Positions 52,413-63,142 of a stretch of DNA of 64,000 nt are shown one piece after another (the stretch's first letter is position 1; the number at the start of each line of letters is the position of its first letter). Source of the DNA: Fluviicoccus sp. (lineage in GTDB: Bacteria; Pseudomonadota; Gammaproteobacteria; Pseudomonadales; Moraxellaceae); the NCBI RefSeq assembly GCF_030646115.1, contig NZ_JAUSMX010000015.1:186001-250000 (forward strand), read 5' to 3'. A program made the position numbers and the translations under genes. The notes beneath the pieces were generated by a model that did no database searches, was not told the DNA's origin, and worked only from the letters and a program-made list of their open reading frames with translations.

Positions 52413-52550
52413 ATGCCTGCCTTCAACCGCTTGACCCGGTTGCTGAAGAATTTCAGCGCCGACACCCGCTTTTTCCTGATGACCCTGGCGGCCGGCGACA
52501 GCCCGGAAGCTTGGCAGGGCTCGGCCTTGGAATTTCCACCTAAAACCTGA
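52413..52550 (+). CDS. Small unassigned reading frame ahead of the signalling cluster
   Basis: 45 codons from ATG 52413 with a GGGGAAC site nearby, beginning MPAFNRLTRLLKNFSADTRF. Not recognised as any family. It may be a short expressed peptide or an artefact, and its amino-acid use (basic N-terminus, hydrophobic centre FFLMTLAAG) could suit a membrane-active peptide. Confidence 0.35.
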   Translation: MPAFNRLTRLLKNFSADTRFFLMTLAAGDSPEAWQGSALEFPPKT

Positions 52551-52565
52551 GCATTACTTGGCTTT

Positions 52566-52579
52566 TTGATAAATGTCAA
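52566..52579 (+). promoter_or_regulatory. Candidate FNR/Anr box upstream of the signalling cluster
   Basis: TTGATAAATGTCAA matches TTGAT-N4-ATCAA with one change. It is 147 bases before the pseudo-receiver gene. A TAATAA at 52616-52621 could be a -10, placing the box centre about 55 bases before the transcript start, not the ideal 41.5. So evidence is moderate. Confidence 0.45.
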
Positions 52580-52725
52580 TCGGGGAAACCCCCTGCCTGA
52601 CACGGGAATCCCCATTAATAAAACAAGGGTATTCCCGAATGGGCGCTGCCCGGCTGACACGATATCGTCATCCCGAACAACAAGAAAAGCGCTCAGGCTT
52701 CCCTGTAGCGGCGAGGACAACGTAC

Positions 52726-53514
52726 ATGACCAAGATGACCCGTGTAATCGGCTGTGTTTCCAGTGAGCAGCGCCAACACCTCATTTTCCGGTCCATGGTT
52801 CGGGTTCTTGGCCAAGGCGCCACGTCAAGCCTAAAGCATCAGTGGTCGTTCAGCGATGTCGGCCCTTTCGATGTACGGATTGTGGACATTGATGATGAGG
52901 AACACGTCGCACTGGCCGACGAACAGGGACAAGGCGTGGTGGTGGTGCTGGCCGGCAACCAGCAGATTCTGGTCGGTCGTCAGTTCACGCTGTCCAAGCC
53001 GCTGCGCGGCAACGAATTTTTGCAACTGCTGCAAGCCATTGAGGCGGCGGGTTTCGAAGCCCGTGTCACTGCAGATGCCGCTGACATCCCGGTGGCCACC
53101 GCTCCCGCCGCACCGGCAGAACCCAATCCGTTGAAGACAGAGAGCAACGTCAAGACCGCCCCGACCATCTCCGCCCAGACCGAAATCCTGATCAGCCTGG
53201 AATCGTGGCCTGACCTTCCCCGCATGGCCGACGACATGCTGCATGACGCCGCCCGCATTTGTGCGCTGCTGTCGGTGCGGCCCAGCAGCCGTGAAACCAT
53301 CAGCCGTTTCCTGGACATTCCCCCGGAAAACGTCAATCGCGTGCTGAAAATCATCCCCGCCTGCTCCCACGCCGGGGACATCCGGACCTTGCACGAACAC
53401 CAGAGTGCGGCAACTGAAGCCAACAATGTCATTCCCCTGCACGATCAGGTCAGCGGCGGCAAGCCGTCCTCGCTACTGTCAAAACTCTGGAACCGCCTGA
53501 GAGGGGCCGCCTGA
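52726..53514 (+). CDS. Pseudo-receiver plus winged-helix-like signalling protein
   Basis: Start ATG 52726 (GAGGA upstream). The 262-residue protein begins with a receiver-like fold (residues 1-107): alternating strands, FDVRIVDIDDEE at the phosphoacceptor strand, VVVVLAG, and a final KPLRGNEFLQLLQAIE with the conserved Lys-Pro, but without the usual acidic pair after strand 1. An Ala/Pro linker follows. Residues about 150-230 (LISLESWPDLPRMADDML onward) look like a helical wHTH-type domain. It may be the DNA- or protein-binding output of the cluster. Two bases separate it from the GTPase gene. Confidence 0.7.
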   Translation: MTKMTRVIGCVSSEQRQHLIFRSMVRVLGQGATSSLKHQWSFSDVGPFDVRIVDIDDEEHVALADEQGQGVVVVLAGNQQILVGRQFTLSKPLRGNEFLQLLQAIEAAGFEARVTADAADIPVATAPAAPAEPNPLKTESNVKTAPTISAQTEILISLESWPDLPRMADDMLHDAARICALLSVRPSSRETISRFLDIPPENVNRVLKIIPACSHAGDIRTLHEHQSAATEANNVIPLHDQVSGGKPSSLLSKLWNRLRGAA

Positions 53515-53516
53515 TC

Positions 53517-54095
53517 ATGGAATGGAGCATCCTGTTCATGGGGCCGGTCGGGGCCGGTAAAACGGAAGCCATTCGCTCGCTGTCGGATATCGAGGTGGTG
53601 GACACCGACGTGGCCGCCACCGATGAAACCGCCCTGCTCAAGGAGAAAACTACCGTCTCCATGGATGTCGGCGTGCTTAATCTGGGCGGCGGCGACAGGC
53701 TACGACTCTACGGCGCACCCGGTCAGGGACGTTTCGACTTCATGTGGGAAATCCTGGTGGAACACACCAAAGGGCTGGTGATCATGCTCAATCACGCCAA
53801 CCCGGACCCCCTGCAGGACATCGCTTTTTATGCCGGCCGCCTGAAGGGCATGCTGGCGGGCCGCACCCTGCCGGTGGTGGTGGGCGTCACCCATACCGAT
53901 GAACGCACCGACCGCTCCATGACCCTGTATCTGGAGTACCTCAAGCAGCACCCGCTGCCGTTTGCCAGCGGCAAAGTGCCGGTATTCCGCGTGGATGCCC
54001 GGCAGCGCCATGATGCCAGCGCGCTGATGATGGCATTGGCCGCCATGCTGGAAATGAACGAGCGGCTGCCCCAGACCGTCCATGGGGTAGCTTGA
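53517..54095 (+). CDS. Small Ras-like GTPase (COG2229/MglA-like)
   Basis: 192 residues: P-loop GPVGAGKT (9-16), switch II region GAPGQGRF (66-73) in which the usual Asp-x-x-Gly Asp is replaced by Gly, and THTDE (125-129) in place of NKxD, so GTP preference and hydrolysis are modified. The family pairs with roadblock/LC7 GTPase-activating proteins, and three such genes are in this cluster. The stop overlaps the start of the next gene (TGATG). Confidence 0.85.
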   Translation: MEWSILFMGPVGAGKTEAIRSLSDIEVVDTDVAATDETALLKEKTTVSMDVGVLNLGGGDRLRLYGAPGQGRFDFMWEILVEHTKGLVIMLNHANPDPLQDIAFYAGRLKGMLAGRTLPVVVGVTHTDERTDRSMTLYLEYLKQHPLPFASGKVPVFRVDARQRHDASALMMALAAMLEMNERLPQTVHGVA

Positions 54096-55495
54096 TGCAG
54101 CACATCCTCGAACTGCAGGGTTACGGCCTGGCCTATAACGACAAGAAGGTGCTGCTGTCTATCGACATGACCGTCCCGGACACGGGCATCACCGCCATTC
54201 TCGGCCCTTCCGGCACCGGCAAGTCGTCCTTGTTGCGCACGCTGGCGGGTTTCAACGACAACCATCCCTCGCTGCTGACCTGGGGCGAAGTGAACTACCG
54301 GGGCGCGGGCCGCCCGGCGCTGGTGATGCAGAAGGCGGCGCTGATGGTGTCGACGGTGCTGGAAAACCTGCTGACCAGCCTGCCGCACCGTTCGTCATTG
54401 ACGCGACTGGAGCAGATTGAGTTGCTGAGCGGCTTCTGTACGGGACTGGATCAGGTCTGGGTCATCGAAAAACTGTCCCATCCGGTCACCAAGCTGGAAT
54501 TTTACGAGCAACGGGCGGTCGCCATTCTCCGCGAAGCCTTGGCCCGCCCCGCCCTGCTGATGCTGGACGAGCCCACCGAGAGCCTGAGCGATGACGCCGC
54601 CGGGAAAATTTGCCGGTTGATTCATGAAGTGGCTGCGCTGCAACCGGTGCTGATGATTTCACATCATCTGGCCCAGACGCAGCGGCTGGCTGACCACGTC
54701 GTGCTGTTCTCGGGCGGTATGGTGCAGGAAAGCGGCCCCACTGCCGCCTTCTTCCAGTCGCCCCGCAGCGAAGCCGGAAAGATTTTTATCCGCAGCGGCT
54801 CCTGTCCCGAAAGCTCACTGGAGCCGGTTGCCGAGGAAGACGAGGACTGCGCTATGGAAAGTATCCCGCAACCGCCGCGCGCCGAACATCTGGCGCCCGC
54901 GCTGACCGTCAAGAGCCGGTTCATGGGACCGCGCGGCTTTGTCTGGCTGATTCCCGGACGGCTGGCCGGAACTCCCTGGCCGGGTATTGTCCGCGATACG
55001 GATGAAGATCTGGACGCGTTGCGCAATGTCGGCATCACCCGACTTGTGTCACTGACCGAGATTCCGTTTGACGAAGTACAGGCGGCGCGATTCGGTATCC
55101 AGTGCGCCAATGTGCCCATTCCCGACATGCACGCCCCAACGCTGGCAGTCGCCTTTGACTTTTGCCGGGATACCGACCGCTGGCTGCAGGCAGGCGAAAC
55201 CGTCGCCATCCACTGCAAGGCCGGACTGGGCCGCACCGGCACCCTGCTGGCGGTCTATTGGCTGTGGACCGGCCAAGGGGAATACAACGCCATTGAAGCC
55301 ATTGAATACGTGCGGCGCATGGAGTCGGGAATGATCCAGTCCCAGGCGCAGGTGGACTTCCTGAGCGAGTTTGCCGAATCGCTGCAGACCGCCGCGCCTG
55401 CATCGCCGCACCAAACCCGAACGAGGCCGGGGGAAGCGCCTCACATGACAACCATAACCATAACCACCACTGAAAAACCAGGAGTTTTAATATGA
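54095..55495 (+). CDS. Fusion of degenerate ABC ATPase and dual-specificity-type phosphatase
   Basis: 466 residues. Residues 1-225 form an ABC-type ATPase: Walker A GPSGTGKS (37-44), Walker B LLMLDEP (154-160), a His switch in MISHHLAQT (188-196). The LSGGQ signature is lost (HPVTKLEFYEQR, 129-140), so ATP hydrolysis may be changed. Residues about 275-440 are a cysteine phosphatase with P-loop HCKAGLGRT (His373, Cys374, Arg380) and general-acid region near Asp344. No ABC permease is near. The fusion is unusual and may be a phosphorylation or nucleotide-controlled protein phosphatase. It overlaps the genes on both sides. Confidence 0.85.
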   Translation: MQHILELQGYGLAYNDKKVLLSIDMTVPDTGITAILGPSGTGKSSLLRTLAGFNDNHPSLLTWGEVNYRGAGRPALVMQKAALMVSTVLENLLTSLPHRSSLTRLEQIELLSGFCTGLDQVWVIEKLSHPVTKLEFYEQRAVAILREALARPALLMLDEPTESLSDDAAGKICRLIHEVAALQPVLMISHHLAQTQRLADHVVLFSGGMVQESGPTAAFFQSPRSEAGKIFIRSGSCPESSLEPVAEEDEDCAMESIPQPPRAEHLAPALTVKSRFMGPRGFVWLIPGRLAGTPWPGIVRDTDEDLDALRNVGITRLVSLTEIPFDEVQAARFGIQCANVPIPDMHAPTLAVAFDFCRDTDRWLQAGETVAIHCKAGLGRTGTLLAVYWLWTGQGEYNAIEAIEYVRRMESGMIQSQAQVDFLSEFAESLQTAAPASPHQTRTRPGEAPHMTTITITTTEKPGVLI

Positions 55496-55899
55496 GCAAG
55501 CTTGACGATGCCCTGCAACGCGCCATGACCAGCGTCCCTGATTGCGTCGCGGCCGGTTTTGTCGATCTGAGTTCCGGCATGGTACTCAGCGTCAAGACCG
55601 TGGACTCCCACCCTTCGGAAGTCTTCGACTTCCTGGCCGCCGCAACCACCGATCTGTTCCAGGGCCCCAATGTCGTGGCCATTGAAAACATCTTCAAGAA
55701 GGCGCGCGGGCTGCCCGAGTCCACTGAGATGCACTATTTCCAGGAGGTAATCGTCAACAGTGACAACCTGATCCATGTGTTCCTTCGCGGCAAGAAGCAA
55801 CAGCAAGTCGTGTGTTTTGTCTGCCGCAAGGGCGCCAACCTCGGCATGGTGCTGACCAAGGCCCGCGCGGGTATGCCAAGCGTCGAGCAGGCGCTCTGA
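55492..55899 (+). CDS. Small roadblock-fold-like protein, member 1
   Basis: 135 residues starting SKLDDALQRAMTSVPDCVAAGFVDL, with the five-strand, two-helix pattern of the roadblock/LC7 fold, in a diverged form. ATG overlaps the preceding stop (ATGA) and AGGAG lies upstream. Probably part of the GTPase control complex. The fold assignment is by pattern only. Confidence 0.68.
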   Translation: MSKLDDALQRAMTSVPDCVAAGFVDLSSGMVLSVKTVDSHPSEVFDFLAAATTDLFQGPNVVAIENIFKKARGLPESTEMHYFQEVIVNSDNLIHVFLRGKKQQQVVCFVCRKGANLGMVLTKARAGMPSVEQAL

Positions 55900-55920
55900 T
55901 CCGGATAGTGCGGTAACCGC

Positions 55921-55944
55921 CCCGGCGGCAGGAAGCCCGCCGGG
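55921..55944 (+). other. Intercistronic hairpin in the signalling cluster
   Basis: CCCGGCGG (55921-55928) and CCGCCGGG (55937-55944) form a perfect 8-bp stem, without a T run. It may stabilise the transcript or partly terminate it between two roadblock-type genes. Confidence 0.6.
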
Positions 55945-56036
55945 CGACAAGGGAAATACCGACACATCGGGCAACGCCGGCCGATGTTGCCGGAAGAAGT
56001 CAAGCAACGAGTCATCACAAGGGAAGAATCCACATC

Positions 56037-56435
56037 ATGACAATGGCAAACAACAAAGAGTCTTTCGCGCACAGCGCACGCAGCGTGCTCCGCGCCGTGC
56101 ATCAGGCGGAAGACAACATCGAGGCATCGGCCGTGGTTTCCCGCGACGGCCTGATTGTAGCCTCCCAGCTTTCCCACGGCGCCGATGCCGACCGTTTCGG
56201 CGCCATGTGCGCCTCCTTGCTGGCGCTGGCCTCCAAGGCGGCCACCGAGGTGGACCGGGGTGAGTTGCGCCAGGTGATCCTGGACGGCACCAAGGGCCCC
56301 ATGCTGCTGACGCATATCGGAAAGTTCGCCGTGCTTGCCGTCGCCGCCCGCCCGGCCAAGGCCAACCTCGGCAAACTGATCATGGAAACCCGCGCGGCGG
56401 CGGCAAAACTCACCGAGATTGGAAATGCCCTCTGA
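56037..56435 (+). CDS. Roadblock/LC7 (MglB-like) protein, member 2
   Basis: 132 residues. The best roadblock match of the three: EASAVVSRDGLIVASQL (about 30-46), GAMCASLLALASKAATEV and GPMLLTHIGKFAVLAVAARP are the usual strand-helix-strand pieces. Roadblock proteins of this type dimerise and act on small Ras-like GTPases such as the one at 53517. It overlaps the ferredoxin-globin gene by 11 bases. Confidence 0.85.
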   Translation: MTMANNKESFAHSARSVLRAVHQAEDNIEASAVVSRDGLIVASQLSHGADADRFGAMCASLLALASKAATEVDRGELRQVILDGTKGPMLLTHIGKFAVLAVAARPAKANLGKLIMETRAAAAKLTEIGNAL

Positions 56436-57582
56436 TAGTCCCTCCCGCGTGCTGCACTACCAAGGGCATGCCGTGGCCTGCCGCGACAACGAGACGGTGC
56501 TGGACGCCTTCCTGAGAGCGGGTGTCAACATCCCCTTCTCCTGCAAGAGCGGCATTTGTCATCGCTGCATGGTGCGCTGCGTGGACGGCGATATTCCACC
56601 CCACGCCCAGCGCAAACTGCCCGAACACCAGCGCGCGGCCGGTTGCCTGCTGTCCTGCCAGTGTCACCCCACCGGCCCCATGATGCTGGCGCCCCGCTCA
56701 CCGGAAGACAGTGTCACCCGTTGCCGCCTGGTGGAACTGACCCGCACCGTCAACGACCGCTGGCGAGTGGTTTTTGAGCCGTTCTCCACCCTGAATTACC
56801 GCCCCGCCCAGCTGGCCCGCCTGATGAGCGCCGGGCTGGATGGCGAATGTTCCGCCGTCTTCATCAGTGTGCCGGACGACGACTATTATACGGTCGTTGA
56901 GCTGGGCGACGGAGCCGGGCTGCCGGACTGGCTGCGTCAGCAATCCCTTGAAGATCTGGAGTTTTGCCTGCGCGGCCCCTTGCCGGTGGAGCAGTCGGAG
57001 CCGGTAACGCCGTTGCCGCCGGAACCGGCGTTGTGGGATGAGCTGGGCGGCGACGCCATGGTCCGGGCCGTGCTGGCCACGTTCTACGACAAGGTCTATG
57101 CCGACCCGGAGCTGCGGCCCTTCTTCGAGCGCGTCACCTTGGACCGCATCATCGGCAAGCAGTTTGCCTTCCTGAAGCAGCACATCAAGGACGAGCCGGG
57201 GTTTCTGGGGGAACAGCCGCACAACTCGCACAGCTGGATGGTGATAACCGACGCCCTGTTCGACCACCGGCAGAACCTGATGCTGCAGGCCATGCGCGAA
57301 CACGGTATCGACGAAGGACTGATTGCCCGCTGGTCGCGTTATGAAGAACAATTCCGGCCGGACATTGTCAAATACAAGCCCTGGCTGAAGCGCATGGGCG
57401 GCATGCTGGTGGATACCGAACAATACGAGGTCTGCCTGCTGGAAGAAGCCACCGTCTGCGATTATTGCAGCGGGGAAATTCCGGCCAACACCGTGGTTCG
57501 TTATCACAAGCGTATCGGCAAGATCGGCTGCGACACCTGTATCGGCGTCGCACCGGCGGAGGGAAGCCCATGTCAGCCATGA
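56425..57582 (+). CDS. Ferredoxin - truncated globin - zinc-ribbon-like fusion protein
   Basis: 385 residues. Residues 1-90: plant-type [2Fe-2S] ferredoxin, Cys40, Cys45, Cys48 and Cys78. Residues about 95-185: beta-rich segment resembling part of an FNR FAD domain, probably degenerate. Residues about 203-320: group I truncated globin with B10 Tyr221 and proximal His269 (PHNSHSWMVIT). Residues 345-372: CDYC...CDTC, a zinc-ribbon-like pair. A haem globin joined to an electron-transfer domain suggests NO or O2 sensing or NO dioxygenation. Start ATG 56425 is chosen over a TTG six bases earlier. Confidence 0.85.
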   Translation: MPSDSPSRVLHYQGHAVACRDNETVLDAFLRAGVNIPFSCKSGICHRCMVRCVDGDIPPHAQRKLPEHQRAAGCLLSCQCHPTGPMMLAPRSPEDSVTRCRLVELTRTVNDRWRVVFEPFSTLNYRPAQLARLMSAGLDGECSAVFISVPDDDYYTVVELGDGAGLPDWLRQQSLEDLEFCLRGPLPVEQSEPVTPLPPEPALWDELGGDAMVRAVLATFYDKVYADPELRPFFERVTLDRIIGKQFAFLKQHIKDEPGFLGEQPHNSHSWMVITDALFDHRQNLMLQAMREHGIDEGLIARWSRYEEQFRPDIVKYKPWLKRMGGMLVDTEQYEVCLLEEATVCDYCSGEIPANTVVRYHKRIGKIGCDTCIGVAPAEGSPCQP

Positions 57583-57956
57583 ACAAAACAACCCTGCTGT
57601 TCATTCGCAAGACGATGGAACAATGCAGCAGCTGCCCAGGCTTCTACGGGGCCGTGCTGTCGTCGCCCGACGGTCTGGTGCTGGCCTCCTCCGGCCAGTT
57701 TGACGGCGATGAATCAGCCGCCTGCGCCTCCAGCCTGATGGTCAACACCTCCTCCAGCCTCAACCAGCTGGCCTCCGGAGGGCCGACGGAAATGCTGATC
57801 TGGGGCGCGGACCGGAAAATCTGGAACGTCAGCGTACTGACCGGCGACTACATCCTGCTGATCGCAGCCAGCGATGCGGCGCATACCGACATGTTGCGAC
57901 GAATGATGACCCGTACATCGGACATGCTGAACCAGGCGCTGCGCATCCTGGTGTGA
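57570..57956 (+). CDS. Roadblock-fold-like protein, member 3
   Basis: ATG 57570 (GGAGGGA upstream) overlaps the fusion gene by 13 bases. The 128-residue product has a strand-turn-strand GAVLSSPDGLVLASSGQF like roadblock proteins, then a helix ACASSLMVNTSSSLNQL and a final pair of strands. Probably dimerises with the other members or the GTPase. Fold by pattern only. Confidence 0.72.
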   Translation: MSAMNKTTLLFIRKTMEQCSSCPGFYGAVLSSPDGLVLASSGQFDGDESAACASSLMVNTSSSLNQLASGGPTEMLIWGADRKIWNVSVLTGDYILLIAASDAAHTDMLRRMMTRTSDMLNQALRILV

Positions 57957-58039
57957 CTGCTCAGGAGCGACACTTTTTCGTGGAGATAGTACACACATTT
58001 ATGTCATGGTTATTGCCTGCACATACAAATTGAAGTCTA

Positions 58040-59407
58040 ATGAATACCTATACCCGCCCCTGTATGACACCCATGGAAACTGACCTGCTGCTGAGCCCGC
58101 TATTCCTGGCCCTGGCCAACGATCAGGATGACTGCCTGCTGGTTTGCGATGCCCACGGGAAGGTGATTCATGCCGTTGCCGGCAAGACTTTCGCTGAGCC
58201 GCCGGTGCTGCGGGGCGAGAATATCCACGACCGGCTGCAACTACCCGTCAACACCTTCACCGACCTTGGGACCAACATTCTGGGCCAGTTCCGCGAACAG
58301 CCCTGCGATATCCGGGTGCAACGCGTCGACATCCATCCCGAGCAAGCCCTGTACCTGTGCCGGGTGCGGCCGCTGAGCGGAGCCCTGTCGTGGCAGAACT
58401 GGCTGGAAAGCCTGCCCGCACCCATCGCGGTTCGTGACCGGAACGGTTATTTCCTGTGGGCCAACACCCTGTTCATCCGCCGTTTCGCCGGCAACGGCGC
58501 CTGCATTGCCGGGCGGCATATCCGCTCGGTGTTGTGTGCAGAGGATGCCGACAAGACGCTGGCGGCCGACCACTATGTGCTGGAAACCGGCCGATCCACC
58601 CTCTTTGAATATACCTGCAGCGATCGGCAATGCGCCGAAGGCCACTATCTGGTATTGCAGGGCCCCTGCCGATTGCCCGGCCAGGACGCAGGCATTATTT
58701 CAGTGGTGGAAGAGAAGGAAAAGCTGCGCATGGAAATGCCCAGCTTTCAGGAAACGGAAATCCGCTACCAGCGGCTGGCGAGGCATTTGATGGCCCAGCT
58801 GGACAACCACAATGCCGCTCTGGCGCGCGACCTGCACGATGTGCTGGGCCAGACGCTGATCGGCATCAAACTGGCCATCCACAATGCCATGGGCCGTCAG
58901 GATGTGCCCCCGTCCTTGGCAGAAGCCATGCAGTACTGGATGGTGCTGCTGGATGAAAGCATCACCTTCATCCGCAGTTTCACCAGCGGACTGCACCCCC
59001 GCCACTTACAGGAATTCGGGTTGAAGCGGACACTGCGCACCTGGCTGGAACAGAGCCGACTGCACTCCGATATCGCCTTTGACATCCGCATTGACGAGGA
59101 ACTGCCCAAACTCAACGCCGACGTCAAAAACGCCTGCCTGCGCATTGCCCAGGAAGCCGTGACCAACAGCCTGCGCCATGCCTCGGCCACTCGCGTGCAA
59201 GTGGATCTCCACCATCGCAACGGCTACCTGACCCTGAACATCATCGACGACGGCAACGGCTTCTGCGCGCAGGAGGCGCGTGAACATCAGGCAGGCCTGG
59301 GGCTGGTCAGCATGAGCGAGCGAGCCCATCTCTCCGGAGGAAAACTTAACATTACCTCCAACCCCGGTACTGGAACGACCATCACCGCCATCTGGCCCAT
59401 TACCTGA
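58040..59407 (+). CDS. Soluble NarX-type sensor histidine kinase
   Basis: 455 residues without transmembrane helices. Residues about 20-110 and 118-225 look like PAS-type sensor domains; the second contains VRDRNGYFLWANTLF. The HisKA_3 dimer helix has His266 in ARDLHDVLGQTL, followed by HATPase boxes QEAVTNSLRHA, IIDDGNGF and GLGLVSMSERA. It would phosphorylate the LuxR-type regulator nine bases downstream. Several Cys residues in the sensor region could be redox- or metal-responsive. It is not overlapped by the preceding gene (83 bases apart), so it may have its own control. Confidence 0.9.
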   Translation: MNTYTRPCMTPMETDLLLSPLFLALANDQDDCLLVCDAHGKVIHAVAGKTFAEPPVLRGENIHDRLQLPVNTFTDLGTNILGQFREQPCDIRVQRVDIHPEQALYLCRVRPLSGALSWQNWLESLPAPIAVRDRNGYFLWANTLFIRRFAGNGACIAGRHIRSVLCAEDADKTLAADHYVLETGRSTLFEYTCSDRQCAEGHYLVLQGPCRLPGQDAGIISVVEEKEKLRMEMPSFQETEIRYQRLARHLMAQLDNHNAALARDLHDVLGQTLIGIKLAIHNAMGRQDVPPSLAEAMQYWMVLLDESITFIRSFTSGLHPRHLQEFGLKRTLRTWLEQSRLHSDIAFDIRIDEELPKLNADVKNACLRIAQEAVTNSLRHASATRVQVDLHHRNGYLTLNIIDDGNGFCAQEAREHQAGLGLVSMSERAHLSGGKLNITSNPGTGTTITAIWPIT

Positions 59408-59415
59408 GATCCGAC

Positions 59416-60054
59416 ATGGTCAACATCCTGCTGGTCGACGACCACCAACTGGTGCGCAAGGGGCTGAAAGCCCTGCTGGAAAGCCATCCCGGCTACCAGG
59501 TGATTGCCGAAGCCGGCAACGGACGCGACGCCATGCTGATGATTGAAAGCCTGCGCCCGGACCTGGTGCTGCTGGATATCATGATGCCGGAGAAAAACGG
59601 CCTGGAAGTGGCCTCGGACATTTTGCGCCGCCCCTGCGCCCCGAAAATCCTGCTGCTGACCATGAGCCACATTGCCGAATACATCAGCGAGTCGCTGAAG
59701 CTGGGAATTCAGGGCTATGTGGTCAAGGAGGCGGCGCCGACCGAACTGTTCAACGCCATCGACACCGTGATGCGCGACGAAATCTACCTGAGCCCGTCTG
59801 TTTCCAAACAGATCATGGGCCTACTGCAGAAACGCAACGAAAAGGAAAACCTGCTCAGCAACCTCACCGCCCGCCAGGTGCAGATCCTGAAGCTGATTGC
59901 GCTGGGCTACTCCAGCAAGGCAATGGCTGATGAATTGAGCCTGTCGGTGAAGACCATTGAGGCGCACCGCAGTCAGTTGATGCAGCGGTTGGGTATTCGC
60001 GAAGTGGCGAGCCTGGTTCGATATGCAATGAGGATGGGGCTGGTGGAAGAATAA
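59416..60054 (+). CDS. NarL/LuxR-family response regulator
   Basis: 212 residues: receiver with Asp54 (LVLLDIMMPEK) and a C-terminal LuxR helix-turn-helix (LTARQVQILKLIALGYSSKAMADEL, LSVKTIEAHR). It forms a two-component system with the kinase immediately upstream (eight bases between the genes). The targets are unknown. It ends next to a strong minus-strand terminator. Confidence 0.93.
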   Translation: MVNILLVDDHQLVRKGLKALLESHPGYQVIAEAGNGRDAMLMIESLRPDLVLLDIMMPEKNGLEVASDILRRPCAPKILLLTMSHIAEYISESLKLGIQGYVVKEAAPTELFNAIDTVMRDEIYLSPSVSKQIMGLLQKRNEKENLLSNLTARQVQILKLIALGYSSKAMADELSLSVKTIEAHRSQLMQRLGIREVASLVRYAMRMGLVEE

Positions 60055-60679: not shown

Positions 60680-60683
60680 TTAC
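60652..60683 (-). repeat. Palindromic element at desaturase stop (family 3, copy 2)
   Basis: CCCCCCTT (60652-60659) pairs with AAGGGGGG (60663-60670), then CCGGGGGGTTTACG. The desaturase TAA is within the common part GTAAACCCC, as at the aldehyde dehydrogenase (28399-28438). Confidence 0.7.
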
Positions 60684-61855
60684 GCGGCAATCGCCTCACG
60701 CGATTTGCGGCGCGCCGGTATCGACACTGGCACGACTTCAGCCAAACGCGCAACCGCTGTTTCGGCGGAAGCCTGGACTTTCTGACCAAAGGTCGGCAAC
60801 GCGCCCTTGAAGATGCGGCCCCAGACGGTGGTGAACTGCTTGCGGAAGCTGCCGGTGTTGTAGTGCTGGCCGTACTTCTCGCAAATCTCGCGCACCTTCA
60901 CCGACATTTCGGCATAACGCATGCCGGGGATATCCGGGAACATGTGGTGTTCGATCTGGTGGCTGAGGTTGCCGCTCATGATGTGCATCACGGTGCCGCC
61001 GGTCAGGTTGCTGGAACCGCGAAGCTGGCGCAGGTACCAGTGGCCGCGGGTTTCATTTTCCAACACTTCCTTCGGGAACATCTCTGCGTCTTCGGTGAAG
61101 TGGCCGCAGAAGATGATGCTGAACGCCCAGACGTTGCGGATCAGGTTGGCGGTGAAGTTACCGGCAATGACCGGCAGGAACATCGGACCGGCGATCAGCG
61201 GGAAGAACACATAGTCCTTCGCGAACTGCTTGCGCATCTTGGCAAAGATCGGGGGCAGTTGCTTGCGCACATCGGCCCAGGTCTTTTCACCGGCCATGAC
61301 CTTTTCCAGCTCCAGCGACTGCAGCGACAGCGTCCACTCAAAGGTGACCGCCAGGATGGCGGCCATCAGCGGGTTGGCCAGGAAACGCGGTTCCCACTTC
61401 TGTTCTGGGAAGATGCGCAGCACGCCATAGCCGATGTCGTGGTCGACACCATCGACATTGGTGTAGGTGTGGTGCATGTAGTTGTGGGTATGACGCCAGT
61501 TGTCGGCGGTGCAGACGGTGTCCCACTCGTAACTGCTGCCGCGCAGGCTGGGTTCGTTCATCCAGTCATACTGGCCGTGCATCACGTTGTGGCCCAGTTC
61601 CATGTTCTCGACGATCTTGGAAACGCCGAGGGTGGCGGTGGCGGCCAGCCAGACCGGGGGCAACCAGCCCAGTGTCATCAGCGCGGCGCGGCTGCCGATT
61701 TCGCTGTAGCGCACAAAGTTGCGGATCTTGTAGATGTAGTCGGCGTCTTCCTTGCCCAGCTTGGCAATCGTTTCCTTGCGCAGCGTGTCCAGCTCTGCGC
61801 CAAAGGCCTGGATTTCGTCGTAGCTCAGTTCACGGCTTTTGCTGATGGTGCCCAT
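60680..61855 (-). CDS. desB: Fatty acid desaturase of DesB type
   Basis: ATG 61855 (GAGGA upstream) gives 391 residues. Three histidine boxes supply the di-iron site: GHNVMH (88-93), HTHNYMHH (122-129), and HQIEHH (299-304). It is a membrane-bound desaturase with four transmembrane helices expected, acting probably on acyl-CoA at the delta-9 position as in Pseudomonas DesB. The ferredoxin reductase encoded upstream on the same strand is its electron donor. The stop codon sits inside the family 3 repeat. Confidence 0.9.
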   Translation of the reverse strand: MGTISKSRELSYDEIQAFGAELDTLRKETIAKLGKEDADYIYKIRNFVRYSEIGSRAALMTLGWLPPVWLAATATLGVSKIVENMELGHNVMHGQYDWMNEPSLRGSSYEWDTVCTADNWRHTHNYMHHTYTNVDGVDHDIGYGVLRIFPEQKWEPRFLANPLMAAILAVTFEWTLSLQSLELEKVMAGEKTWADVRKQLPPIFAKMRKQFAKDYVFFPLIAGPMFLPVIAGNFTANLIRNVWAFSIIFCGHFTEDAEMFPKEVLENETRGHWYLRQLRGSSNLTGGTVMHIMSGNLSHQIEHHMFPDIPGMRYAEMSVKVREICEKYGQHYNTGSFRKQFTTVWGRIFKGALPTFGQKVQASAETAVARLAEVVPVSIPARRKSREAIAA

Positions 61856-61888
61856 GGTGTCGTCCTCGGTGTTCAATTAGTTTGGGTT

Positions 61889-62000
61889 CCCTCCCCCCTT
61901 GTGGGGGAGGGTTAGGGAGAGGGGTGCTGCGGTAGTTCAGCGAGGTGACCGCATTCCGCACCCCTCTCCCCGGCCCTCTCCCACAAGGGGAGAGGGGGCT
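61889..62000. repeat. Extragenic palindrome family 1, copies d and e
   Basis: Two inverted copies (about 61889-61932 and 61960-62000) of the CCCTCTCCCCTTGTGGGAGAGGG-type element separated by about 30 bases, between the desaturase and reductase genes. Possible mRNA-processing or dampening signal that gives different levels of the two products. Confidence 0.85.
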
Positions 62001-62006
62001 TTACAT

Positions 62007-63074
62007 TCAGATGTCCAGAACCACGGCGCTCAGCGGTTCGCTGACGCAGATGCGGACCTGGGTGTTGGGGCTGCTGTCGATGGCCCCGGTAATCTTGTCA
62101 CGCACCACACCGGACACCTTGGTGCAGCTGCACTGCTTGCAAACACCCATGCGGCAGCCGTAAGCGGGGCGTGCGCCACCGGCCTCGGCGCTTTCCAGCA
62201 GCGTCGTCTTGGTATGCAGCATGGCTTGCTGGCTGCGGCGCAGCGTGATGGGCATGGCGTTGCCCACGGCGTCACTGGCCAGGCCCACCGGTCCGAACAG
62301 TTCCTGCTTCAACTGTGCACTGATGCCCTTGGCGGCCCACAGGTCGGCGGCAGCTTTCATCAGGCCTTGCGGGCCGCAGATGAAGGCGGCGCGTTCAGCG
62401 AAGTCGGCGCAGACATTGCTGAGTTGCTGTTCACTGAACTTGCCGCCCTCGCCGCTGCTGAACAGGGCGTAGTTCAGCTTCAGGCCGGGATGCTTCACCG
62501 CCAGCTCCACCATTTCCTTGGCAAAGGCCAGGTCGTTTTCGGTATTGGCGTAGTAAACCACTGACACATCCAGCTCGGGACGGCGCTTCAGCGCTTCCAC
62601 CAGCAGGCTGTACACCGGGGTGACACCGCTGCCGCCGGCAATCAGCAACATCTTGGCGCACAGGGCTTCCGGCAGCACGAAGTCACCGGAGGCTTCGCCA
62701 AGCTCAATCAGGTCGCCCACAGCCAGATGGTCATGCAGCCAGTTGGACACCTTGCCGTTGGGCTGGCGCTTGACGCCGATCTCCAGCAGGCCGTCGGTCG
62801 GTTCGCTCACCAGGCTGTAGCAGCGCTCGTGGAAGATGCCGTCGATCTGCACCCGCACCGGCATGAACTGGCCGGCGGCAAAACCCTGCCAGTTGGCGTT
62901 GGGGCGGAACACGAAGCGCTTGATGTCCGGAGTTTCCTGGGAGATGGAGACCACTTCAGCCAACACGCGGTTGACGGCCAGCATCGGGTCGACATGCGAG
63001 AACACGAAATCCAGCCAGTCTTCACGTACGAATTTACCGGCGAGCTTTTTTGCGATGGGGCTGAAACTGGTCAT
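62007..63074 (-). CDS. desC: Ferredoxin reductase partner of the desaturase (DesC type)
   Basis: ATG 63074 has AGGAG eight bases upstream; 355 residues. FNR-type FAD domain (RCYSLVSEP), NAD(P) domain (LLIAGGSGVTPVYSLL), and a C-terminal [2Fe-2S] ferredoxin domain with Cys in YGCRMGVCKQCSC and RICVSEP. It passes electrons from NAD(P)H through FAD and the cluster to the desaturase. Its promoter contains the TetR-type operators described next. Confidence 0.93.
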   Translation of the reverse strand: MTSFSPIAKKLAGKFVREDWLDFVFSHVDPMLAVNRVLAEVVSISQETPDIKRFVFRPNANWQGFAAGQFMPVRVQIDGIFHERCYSLVSEPTDGLLEIGVKRQPNGKVSNWLHDHLAVGDLIELGEASGDFVLPEALCAKMLLIAGGSGVTPVYSLLVEALKRRPELDVSVVYYANTENDLAFAKEMVELAVKHPGLKLNYALFSSGEGGKFSEQQLSNVCADFAERAAFICGPQGLMKAAADLWAAKGISAQLKQELFGPVGLASDAVGNAMPITLRRSQQAMLHTKTTLLESAEAGGARPAYGCRMGVCKQCSCTKVSGVVRDKITGAIDSSPNTQVRICVSEPLSAVVLDI

Positions 63075-63095
63075 GGTCAGGCTCCTGTGTGCCTT

Positions 63096-63113
63096 GGTGA
63101 ACGTCTGTACACT
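63096..63113. promoter_or_regulatory. DesT-like operator half-conserved at the reductase leader
   Basis: GGTGAACGTCTGTACACT is the third, weaker match to AGTGAAC-N4-GTTGACT (from memory of P. aeruginosa DesT). It overlaps the predicted transcript start of the desC-desB operon, 22-39 bases before the reductase start. Confidence 0.45.
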
Positions 63114-63114
63114 C

Positions 63115-63142
63115 ATAATAGCGGATTATTGATTTGAGTCAA
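63115..63142 (-). promoter_or_regulatory. Promoter of the desC-desB operon
   Basis: On the minus strand TTGACT (63142-63137) and TATTAT (63120-63115) are 16 bases apart. The -35 lies inside the DesT-like operator at 63137-63154, so bound repressor would block RNA polymerase. Start of transcript near 63108. Confidence 0.6.

Follow-up and report, generated by a model that had tools for sequence, protein, structure and literature searches.

A putative Group 3-type MglA/MglB switch extended by an ATPase-phosphatase fusion and a ferredoxin-globin in a conserved operon of Fluviicoccus sp.

We identified a conserved operon in Fluviicoccus sp. (Moraxellaceae), within a stretch of 64,000 nucleotides that we call the window (contig NZ_JAUSMX010000015.1, positions 186,001 to 250,000, assembly GCF_030646115.1). 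It is fairly likely that this operon encodes an extended Group 3-type MglA/MglB switch with a haem or redox input, probably acting on type IV pili, an input and an output that we infer from gene content and gene neighbourhoods. The core of the switch has been known since 2014, and the phosphatase and redox parts appear, going by the main text of the article concerned, to be undescribed (PMC4316618).

Gene content and conservation of the operon

Seven plus-strand genes, mostly overlapping, occupy 52726-57956 of the window, and the genes of a kinase and a regulator continue to 60054. The gaps between them are, in order, 2, -1, -4, 137, -17 and -13 bases, then 83 before the kinase gene and 8 before the regulator gene. 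The features are as follows.

52726..53514, +, winged-helix protein with a pseudo-receiver-like N-terminus; 262 amino acids (aa), the conserved part being the C-terminal domain
53517..54095, +, MglA-family small GTPase; 192 aa, G1 GPVGAGKT, G3 GAPGQ, degenerate G4 THTD, G5 VDAR; ATP_bind_1 1.5e-7
54095..55495, +, fusion of an ABC ATPase and a dual-specificity-type (DSP-type) phosphatase; 466 aa, ABC_tran 8.9e-12, DSP-type phosphatase 4.1e-19
55492..55899, +, RB1, roadblock/MglB-fold protein; without a Pfam match, the most conserved protein of the operon
56037..56435, +, RB2, MglB-type Robl_LC7 protein; Robl_LC7 3.4e-18, Asp-Gly (DG) pair present
56419..57582, +, 2Fe-2S ferredoxin, remnant reductase FAD barrel, truncated globin and four-Cys ribbon in one chain; 387 aa, Fer2 6.8e-14, Bac_globin 1e-10
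57570..57956, +, RB3, second MglB-type Robl_LC7 protein; Robl_LC7 5.7e-7, DG pair, in 15 of 84 loci
58040..59407, +, soluble PAS-HisKA_3 histidine kinase; PAS_4/HisKA_3/HATPase, lineage-specific neighbour
59416..60054, +, NarL/LuxR-type response regulator; REC-GerE, receiver motifs intact, lineage-specific neighbour

All nine frames are open at the positions given in the first-pass annotation of this DNA, and the open frames and domain searches bear out the same-direction, mostly overlapping cluster that it described. Its two fusions were also recovered, the ABC ATPase-phosphatase (ABC_tran and DSP-type phosphatase domains in one product) and the ferredoxin-globin-zinc-ribbon protein (Fer2 and Bac_globin matches and a four-Cys ribbon), as were its three roadblock-like proteins, RB2 and RB3 by Robl_LC7 and RB1 by a modelled MglB-like fold. 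A hydropathy scan found no transmembrane-like segment in any operon product of the window (best 19-residue Kyte-Doolittle mean 1.35). An Agitococcus metagenome-assembled genome (MAG) of the Moraxellaceae, locus L059, was the nearest named relative that we met; across the nine genes its proteins are 55 to 99% identical. Ratios of nonsynonymous to synonymous divergence (dN/dS) between the two range from 0.008 to 0.22 across all nine genes, and are rough because dS is 0.96-1.8 and partly near saturation.

RB1 served as search bait because it is short, well conserved and without a Pfam match. A scan with one genome per species confirmed 225 relatives, the best 80 of which were used (79 loci); four loci picked by the fusion and the window brought the set to 84, with L056 and L137 being one and the same contig. 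To find neighbour families we derived profiles from these loci, and a family was counted when its match exceeded the score threshold and fell within 6.5 kb on the same strand. In the 79 loci retrieved with RB1 as the sole bait, the fusion was found in 72, the GTPase and the winged-helix protein in 63 each, RB2 in 60, the ferredoxin-globin in 50, RB3 in 14, and the kinase and regulator in one each. Across all 84 loci the counts were 77 (fusion), 66 (GTPase), 66 (winged-helix), 62 (RB2), 53 (ferredoxin-globin) and 15 (RB3). The commonest exact order, winged-helix, GTPase, fusion, RB1, RB2, ferredoxin-globin, occurs in 20/84 loci, followed by this order minus the globin in 12 and by this order plus RB3 in seven. 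No opposite-strand match to these families rose above the thresholds within 6.5 kb in the 84 loci, and de novo clustering of neighbours gave no further family in more than seven loci, save one mixed cluster scattered through 23 that is receiver/GGDEF-like by eye. An apparent order of winged-helix, fusion, GTPase in L092, L099 and L114 was rejected as an artefact of over-long open reading frame starts. The labelled GTPase rows represent 17 named families within the beta- and gammaproteobacteria, and environmental isolates with the operon include Hydrogenophaga taeniospiralis (L064) and Marinobacter orientalis (L080). The operon is thus confirmed as real and conserved, more than chance would give, and the genes co-occur in order across genomes as a same-strand set in loci that were picked by RB1 alone.

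The soluble kinase and LuxR-type regulator of the first-pass annotation are both present with their domains confirmed, but they are not part of the conserved unit, each being found in 2/84 loci (the window and one relative). At this frequency they were rejected as core parts; the pair is a lineage-specific neighbour and a local addition.

Two variations were seen among the relatives. In an Acinetobacter MAG (L062 7346-10985), the pseudo-receiver/winged-helix gene is present three times around RB1. In L117 (5368-5781) and six other loci the operon includes a Cys-rich protein 0.6-1.1 kb past the RB1 start, which in L117 belongs to PF03692, putatively zinc- or iron-chelating; some of these seven loci may be near-identical relatives.

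Relation to Group 3 MglA systems and conservons

Group 3 MglA systems are nearly confined to beta- and gammaproteobacteria; their GTPases have GTPGQ as G3 and DAR in G5, while G4 often lacks the Lys, and the systems also include one MglB or two and, as a neighbour, a protein that combines a receiver-like and a winged-helix part (main text of PMC4316618). The window GTPase has GAPGQ, TT in G2, THTD in place of NKxD, and VDAR, as expected from its earlier description as a Ras-like GTPase with altered switch II and NKxD. It is like Group 3 in GxPGQ, in Thr for Arg in G2, in a G4 without Lys and in the DAR of G5, and the likeness extends to RB2 and RB3, which are MglBs (Robl_LC7) with the DG pair, and to the beta- and gammaproteobacterial hosts. 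The protein adjoining the GTPase has a well modelled winged helix, and its N-terminus is receiver-like by sequence pattern, in a poor model. Residues G66, P68, G69, Q70, T45, T46 and R162 are invariant in 66 aligned GTPases, and G4 is degenerate. By motifs and partner set, the core GTPase, the MglBs and the winged-helix partner fit the Group 3 MglA system described in 2014. Unlike the published system, the window has an ABC-ATPase/phosphatase fusion, a near-invariant RB1 and a ferredoxin-globin-zinc ribbon; the words "phosphatase" and "globin" have zero occurrences in the main text of PMC4316618. The nearly constant pairing of the ATPase-phosphatase with RB1, the extreme degree to which RB1 is conserved and the redox globin are new beyond Group 3 and appear undescribed; we found no paper in the open-licence literature that names the fusion, or the ferredoxin-globin, together with a Group 3 system, which is weak evidence.

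Of the 274 genomes in a class sample, 47 had the GTPase, and 42 of those 47 gave no strong RB1 match. We picked 18 loci from these genomes. Eight show winged-helix, GTPase and RB2 with a distant RB1-like protein, eight show winged-helix, GTPase, a gap and RB2, and the fusion is absent from all 18. Since these simpler layouts have no fusion, the window type is, judged by gene order, an elaborated Group 3 layout. A gonococcal record (L156) carries a Group-3-like GTPase frame in two pieces.

A midpoint-rooted GTPase tree of 90 rows set the beta- and gammaproteobacterial relatives against two Streptomyces conservon and two Thermus/Deinococcus rows, and all four of these GTPases branched apart from every beta/gamma row (97/89, with a caution about long branches). 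The window GTPase groups with Agitococcus and Acinetobacter inside a 25-row clade (100/100), whose other named rows belong to what we take to be Burkholderiales families; this suggests horizontal acquisition. When the PDB was searched with a GTPase profile of three rows, Sec4-type Rabs were the only matches at E<=1e-5, a result that shows the GTPase to be Ras-like, not specifically MglA. The Pfam Arf model gave no match in the window's own genome.

Like the Myxococcus/Thermus MglA/MglB polarity module, the window pairs a GTPase with a roadblock protein as its putative GTPase-activating protein (GAP), and RB1 shares the MglB fold; unlike that module, its GTPase has lost the G4 Lys and has Thr for the intrinsic G2 Arg, in a different gene set.

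The module had been called conservon-like. The actinobacterial conservon/AGPS consists of CvnA-D, with CvnE P450 or CvnF GAF as accessory proteins, and it shares with the window a small GTPase, a roadblock protein, a further small partner and, sometimes, a haem accessory protein (available text of PMC13343842). This likeness in parts list (GTPase, roadblock, winged-helix, haem accessory) stands, but kinship does not: the window is without a CvnA-type kinase and without DUF742 (none at E<=1 in the nine window proteins, whereas the Streptomyces positive control L158 does give DUF742), its GTPase lies on another branch, and a phosphatase fusion is added. True homology to a conservon with the NarX-like kinase as CvnA, for which the same kinds of parts would speak, is therefore highly improbable, given that the kinase occurs in so few loci, has no transmembrane-like segment and ends in ...ITAIWPIT without LPxR, and that the two Streptomyces GTPases branch apart. 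Conservon membership was rejected on the missing DUF742, the missing LPxR membrane kinase and the separate GTPase branch.

RB1, the ATPase-phosphatase fusion and the ferredoxin-globin

RB1 has no match in a Pfam search and only chance-level matches in a sequence search of the PDB, so fold comparison was required. Its model (predicted local distance difference test, pLDDT, 93) best matched MglB of M. xanthus (Z 16.6, 2.1 Å over 118 residues). Compared with L059, one of its 135 residues is changed while 54% of synonymous sites differ (dN/dS 0.008, versus 0.058 to 0.22 for the other eight genes). Median pairwise identity over 57 loci is 0.68 for RB1, 0.45 for the GTPase, 0.43 for RB2 and 0.42 for the fusion, in a comparison that favours RB1 because the loci were picked by RB1 similarity. 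Residues invariant in 90 RB1 sequences include C18, H81, H95, C111 and R112. The DG pair of MglBs coupled to Groups 2-5 is absent from the window RB1 and present in RB2 and RB3. Strong RB1 matches (>100 bits) were found in five genomes of the class sample (G000, G124, G165, G197 and G224), and weak ones in ten others. RB1 is thus a roadblock protein under extreme constraint that Pfam has missed.

Both halves of the fusion retain catalytic residues. Over 75 rows the Walker A Lys and Ser are kept in 73, and the Walker B Asp and Glu and the switch His in all 75. The ABC signature LSGGQ is missing, with SGGQ in 0/75 and [LIVMF]SGG in 1/75 rows. The phosphatase HCX5R motif and general-acid Asp are kept (C374, R380 and D344 in 75/75, H373 in 74), and this half resembles DUSP23-, PTEN- and Cdc14-type enzymes, with PDB relatives down to 9e-21. 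No membrane permease partner is found among the window operon products; the rest of the genome was not searched for a permease. A search of 252 genomes, in which at most six candidates per genome were scored, matched the phosphatase half in the same five genomes as the strong RB1 and only the ABC half in seventeen others. In three loci the fusion gene is split, over two frames (L069 8508-9974, L109 7983-9378) or three (L070 8520-9983), through sequencing error or decay.

In the ferredoxin-globin protein of the window, residues 21-156 match oxygenase-reductase profiles (PRK05713, 1.8e-19), which takes in about 100 residues after the ferredoxin; FAD_binding_6 and NAD_binding_1 give no match at E<=1. 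In L056 and L123, Fer2, FAD_binding_6, NAD_binding_1 and Bac_globin are joined in one chain, and the first part of the L056 protein is closest in the PDB to P450 reductase, T4moF and BenC-type chains. Over 55 rows, the ferredoxin Cys are kept in 53-54, the proximal His in 52 and the ribbon Cys in 52; two rows are fragments without a globin, one has no ferredoxin, and L065 has Pro for the proximal His, which is present in the truncated globin of the window. The spacer between ferredoxin and globin is at least 269 residues, the size of a reductase, in 27/55 rows, of which 23 carry R-[SAP]-[YF]-S; it is 125-142 residues in 15 rows (R-[SAP]-[YF]-S in 0/15) and 38-64 in ten. From these domain comparisons, the window protein is a putatively reduced form of a ferredoxin-FAD/NAD-reductase-globin protein. 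In the full-length homologues ferredoxin, FAD, NAD and globin domains are combined, a likeness to flavohaemoglobin and to oxygenase reductases of the ferredoxin type (BenC, T4moF); unlike those proteins, the homologues place a truncated globin on the C-terminal side, followed by a four-Cys ribbon, and the window form is without the FAD and NAD domains. Class-wide, the whole ferredoxin-globin matched 203/274 genomes, mostly through the ferredoxin or globin part alone, and the globin-ribbon part matched strongly only in G124 and G197.

Globins are tied to roadblock or GTPase systems elsewhere. HGbRL of Methylacidiphilum is a globin-roadblock fusion (available text of PMC4476040), and on Thermus brockianus pTB1 (L157) the order is DUF4388, MglA-like GTPase, protoglobin, weak protoglobin, roadblock, annotated protoglobin, EAL, as read from the annotation, with two globin genes checked by Pfam. 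These differ from the window in globin family and gene set and are independent associations. A P450 gene adjoins a Streptomyces conservon, and conservon accessory proteins have been proposed as sensory inputs (available text of PMC13343842). The presence of the globin and these parallels lead us to propose a haem or redox input.

Proposed switch, its output and the alternatives

A pilT-family match was present in 47/47 GTPase genomes against 247/274 overall (hypergeometric p 0.005, from a comparison made by eye in which p ignores kinship and genome size). The fusion-RB1 pair without a local GTPase lies 1.6-3.4 kb from pilT in L057, L121, L125 and L131, which share one neighbourhood with a second PilT/PilU-family gene behind pilT and proC nearby, and the RB1 gene lies 2-3 kb from pilB in L106 and L135, with a likely prepilin peptidase between (by eye). 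The search for pilus neighbours covered PilT-like ATPases and ProC only. From these associations we infer a pilus output. In Snodgrassella, an orphan mglB of a Group 3 set affects gut colonisation, potentially via pili (available text of PMC11112851).

In the switch that we propose, RB2 (and RB3), with the Asp-Gly pair of coupled MglBs, would act as GAPs on the GTPase and so control its GTP state. The nearly frozen RB1, without this pair, would form a standing complex with the fusion and serve as a platform joining the phosphatase to the GTPase. The haem/2Fe-2S protein would be the input, with O2 or nitric oxide (NO) occupancy, or redox state, altering the roadblock/GTPase complex, in the manner supposed for the accessory haem (P450) and GAF proteins of conservons. 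Having lost its own NAD(P)H reductase, the window protein may receive electrons from elsewhere or may be a pure sensor. The output would most likely be type IV pilus activity and, less likely, transcription through the winged-helix protein, and the kinase and regulator would be a local addition to the switch.

Several observations weigh against this proposal. The fusion-RB1 pair exists without a local GTPase: of 13 such genomes, five carry the GTPase elsewhere and eight gave none at E<=1e-8 (the isolates Saezia sanguinis, Frateuria defendens and Acinetobacter populi and five MAGs), in a search whose three positive controls matched, although four of the 13 loci without a neighbouring GTPase sit at contig ends. 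Coupling to the GTPase is therefore not obligatory. Likewise, 12/84 loci have a layout ending at RB2 without a globin, so the redox part is dispensable. The Group 3 placement follows from the described motifs and partners; on our tree of beta/gamma relatives with two conservon and two Thermus/Deinococcus rows, the RB1/fusion type is not one clade (two changes; one change in 0% of bootstrap trees) and was therefore gained twice or lost. The pseudo-receiver rests on a sequence pattern, its model being poor. For the pilus link we rely on a gene that 90% of the sampled genomes possess and on neighbourhoods from roughly two lineages. Finally, an FNR-like site at 52566-52579 (one mismatch, 160 bases ahead of the first gene) is absent from L059, where none lies between 6400 and the first gene and an exact FNR-type match sits inside the kinase gene; FNR-type control of the operon, which would depend on this single near-match unshared by L059, was rejected as unsupported. 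The earlier suggestion that the phosphatase removes the signal is likewise unsupported, since the constant partner of the fusion is RB1 and not the GTPase, which eight of the 13 genomes appear to lack.

The same distribution could mean that RB1 and the fusion are themselves the core, an ATP-gated phosphatase on a roadblock scaffold, with the GTPase system and the globin as optional attachments. In favour, the pair is more frequent than the GTPase among the 84 loci (77 versus 66), stands beside pilT without a GTPase in four of them and occurs in eight genomes in which no GTPase was found, and RB1 exceeds the fusion, RB2 and GTPase in median identity (0.68 versus 0.42-0.45). We nevertheless regard this as rather unlikely, because the winged-helix protein and GTPase accompany RB1 in 66/84 loci, all five RB1 genomes of the class sample have the GTPase (two of them unlinked), and distant RB1-like proteins adjoin GTPases without the fusion in 8/18 loci, several of which were picked for a weak RB1 match. 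This last arrangement indicates that the ancestor of RB1 was probably in a GTPase system.

Somewhat less doubtful, but still the lesser possibility, is a transcriptional output in which the winged-helix protein binds DNA under GTPase control, as Wuichet and Sogaard-Andersen suggested in 2014 for Group 3 (main text of PMC4316618). Its C-terminal winged helix agrees with this. The pseudo-receiver/winged-helix protein of the first-pass annotation holds for the second part, where residues 151-210 are modelled at pLDDT 90-97 and best match winged helices, but less well for the first. Against DNA binding, the fold scores are middling (only Z 4.8-7.8), with winged helices of the GATOR1/SEA complex among the matches besides DNA-binding ones, several Comamonadaceae frames retain only about 124 aa, and the N-terminus is freely variable. 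We consider it unlikely that the ferredoxin-globin merely shares the operon and works as an enzyme, an NO dioxygenase or O2 reductase resembling a split flavohaemoglobin. Its full-length relatives do fuse oxygenase-reductase-type ferredoxin, FAD and NAD domains to the globin, and a Tyr, a Gln or Val, and a His, presumably at positions B10, E7 and F8, are kept in most rows; however, the reductase domains are lost or reduced in 26/53 rows with a readable globin, whereas the globin is kept in 53/53 and the ferredoxin in most, and other globins associate independently with MglA/roadblock systems.

At its edges, the cluster had been drawn from 52413, a start that does not hold, as the first clear gene begins at 52726 and L059 aligns from there. 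A 45-codon frame upstream (52413-52550, +) has 63% identity over 30 residues in L059 (E 3.7e-10) and no counterpart in the 78 loci L060-L137 at E<=0.05; it is possibly a small Moraxellaceae protein. Downstream (60680-63116, -), a fatty-acid desaturase lies near a reductase with a C-terminal ferredoxin-like part (by eye), an ordinary electron-transfer pair.

The catalogue of Group 3 switches dates from 2014, and we found a single functional hint, which concerns the orphan Snodgrassella MglB (available text of PMC11112851). More tentatively, and against our own expectation, RB1 and the ABC-ATPase/phosphatase may be a new kind of regulatory unit, an ATP-gated phosphatase on a nearly invariant roadblock scaffold through which a gas or redox sensor with haem and 2Fe-2S is connected to a Ras-like switch and to type IV pili, and in which the invariant Cys18, Cys111, His81 and His95 of RB1 could serve redox or metal chemistry. 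If true, the unit would be a device by which bacteria steer surface movement in aerotaxis or NO-taxis. Within a single genetic unit the operon brings together candidate inputs (haem, iron-sulphur, ATP and phosphate) and type IV pili as a candidate target, and its presence in named isolates of environmental species makes the signals to small GTPases outside Myxococcus testable.

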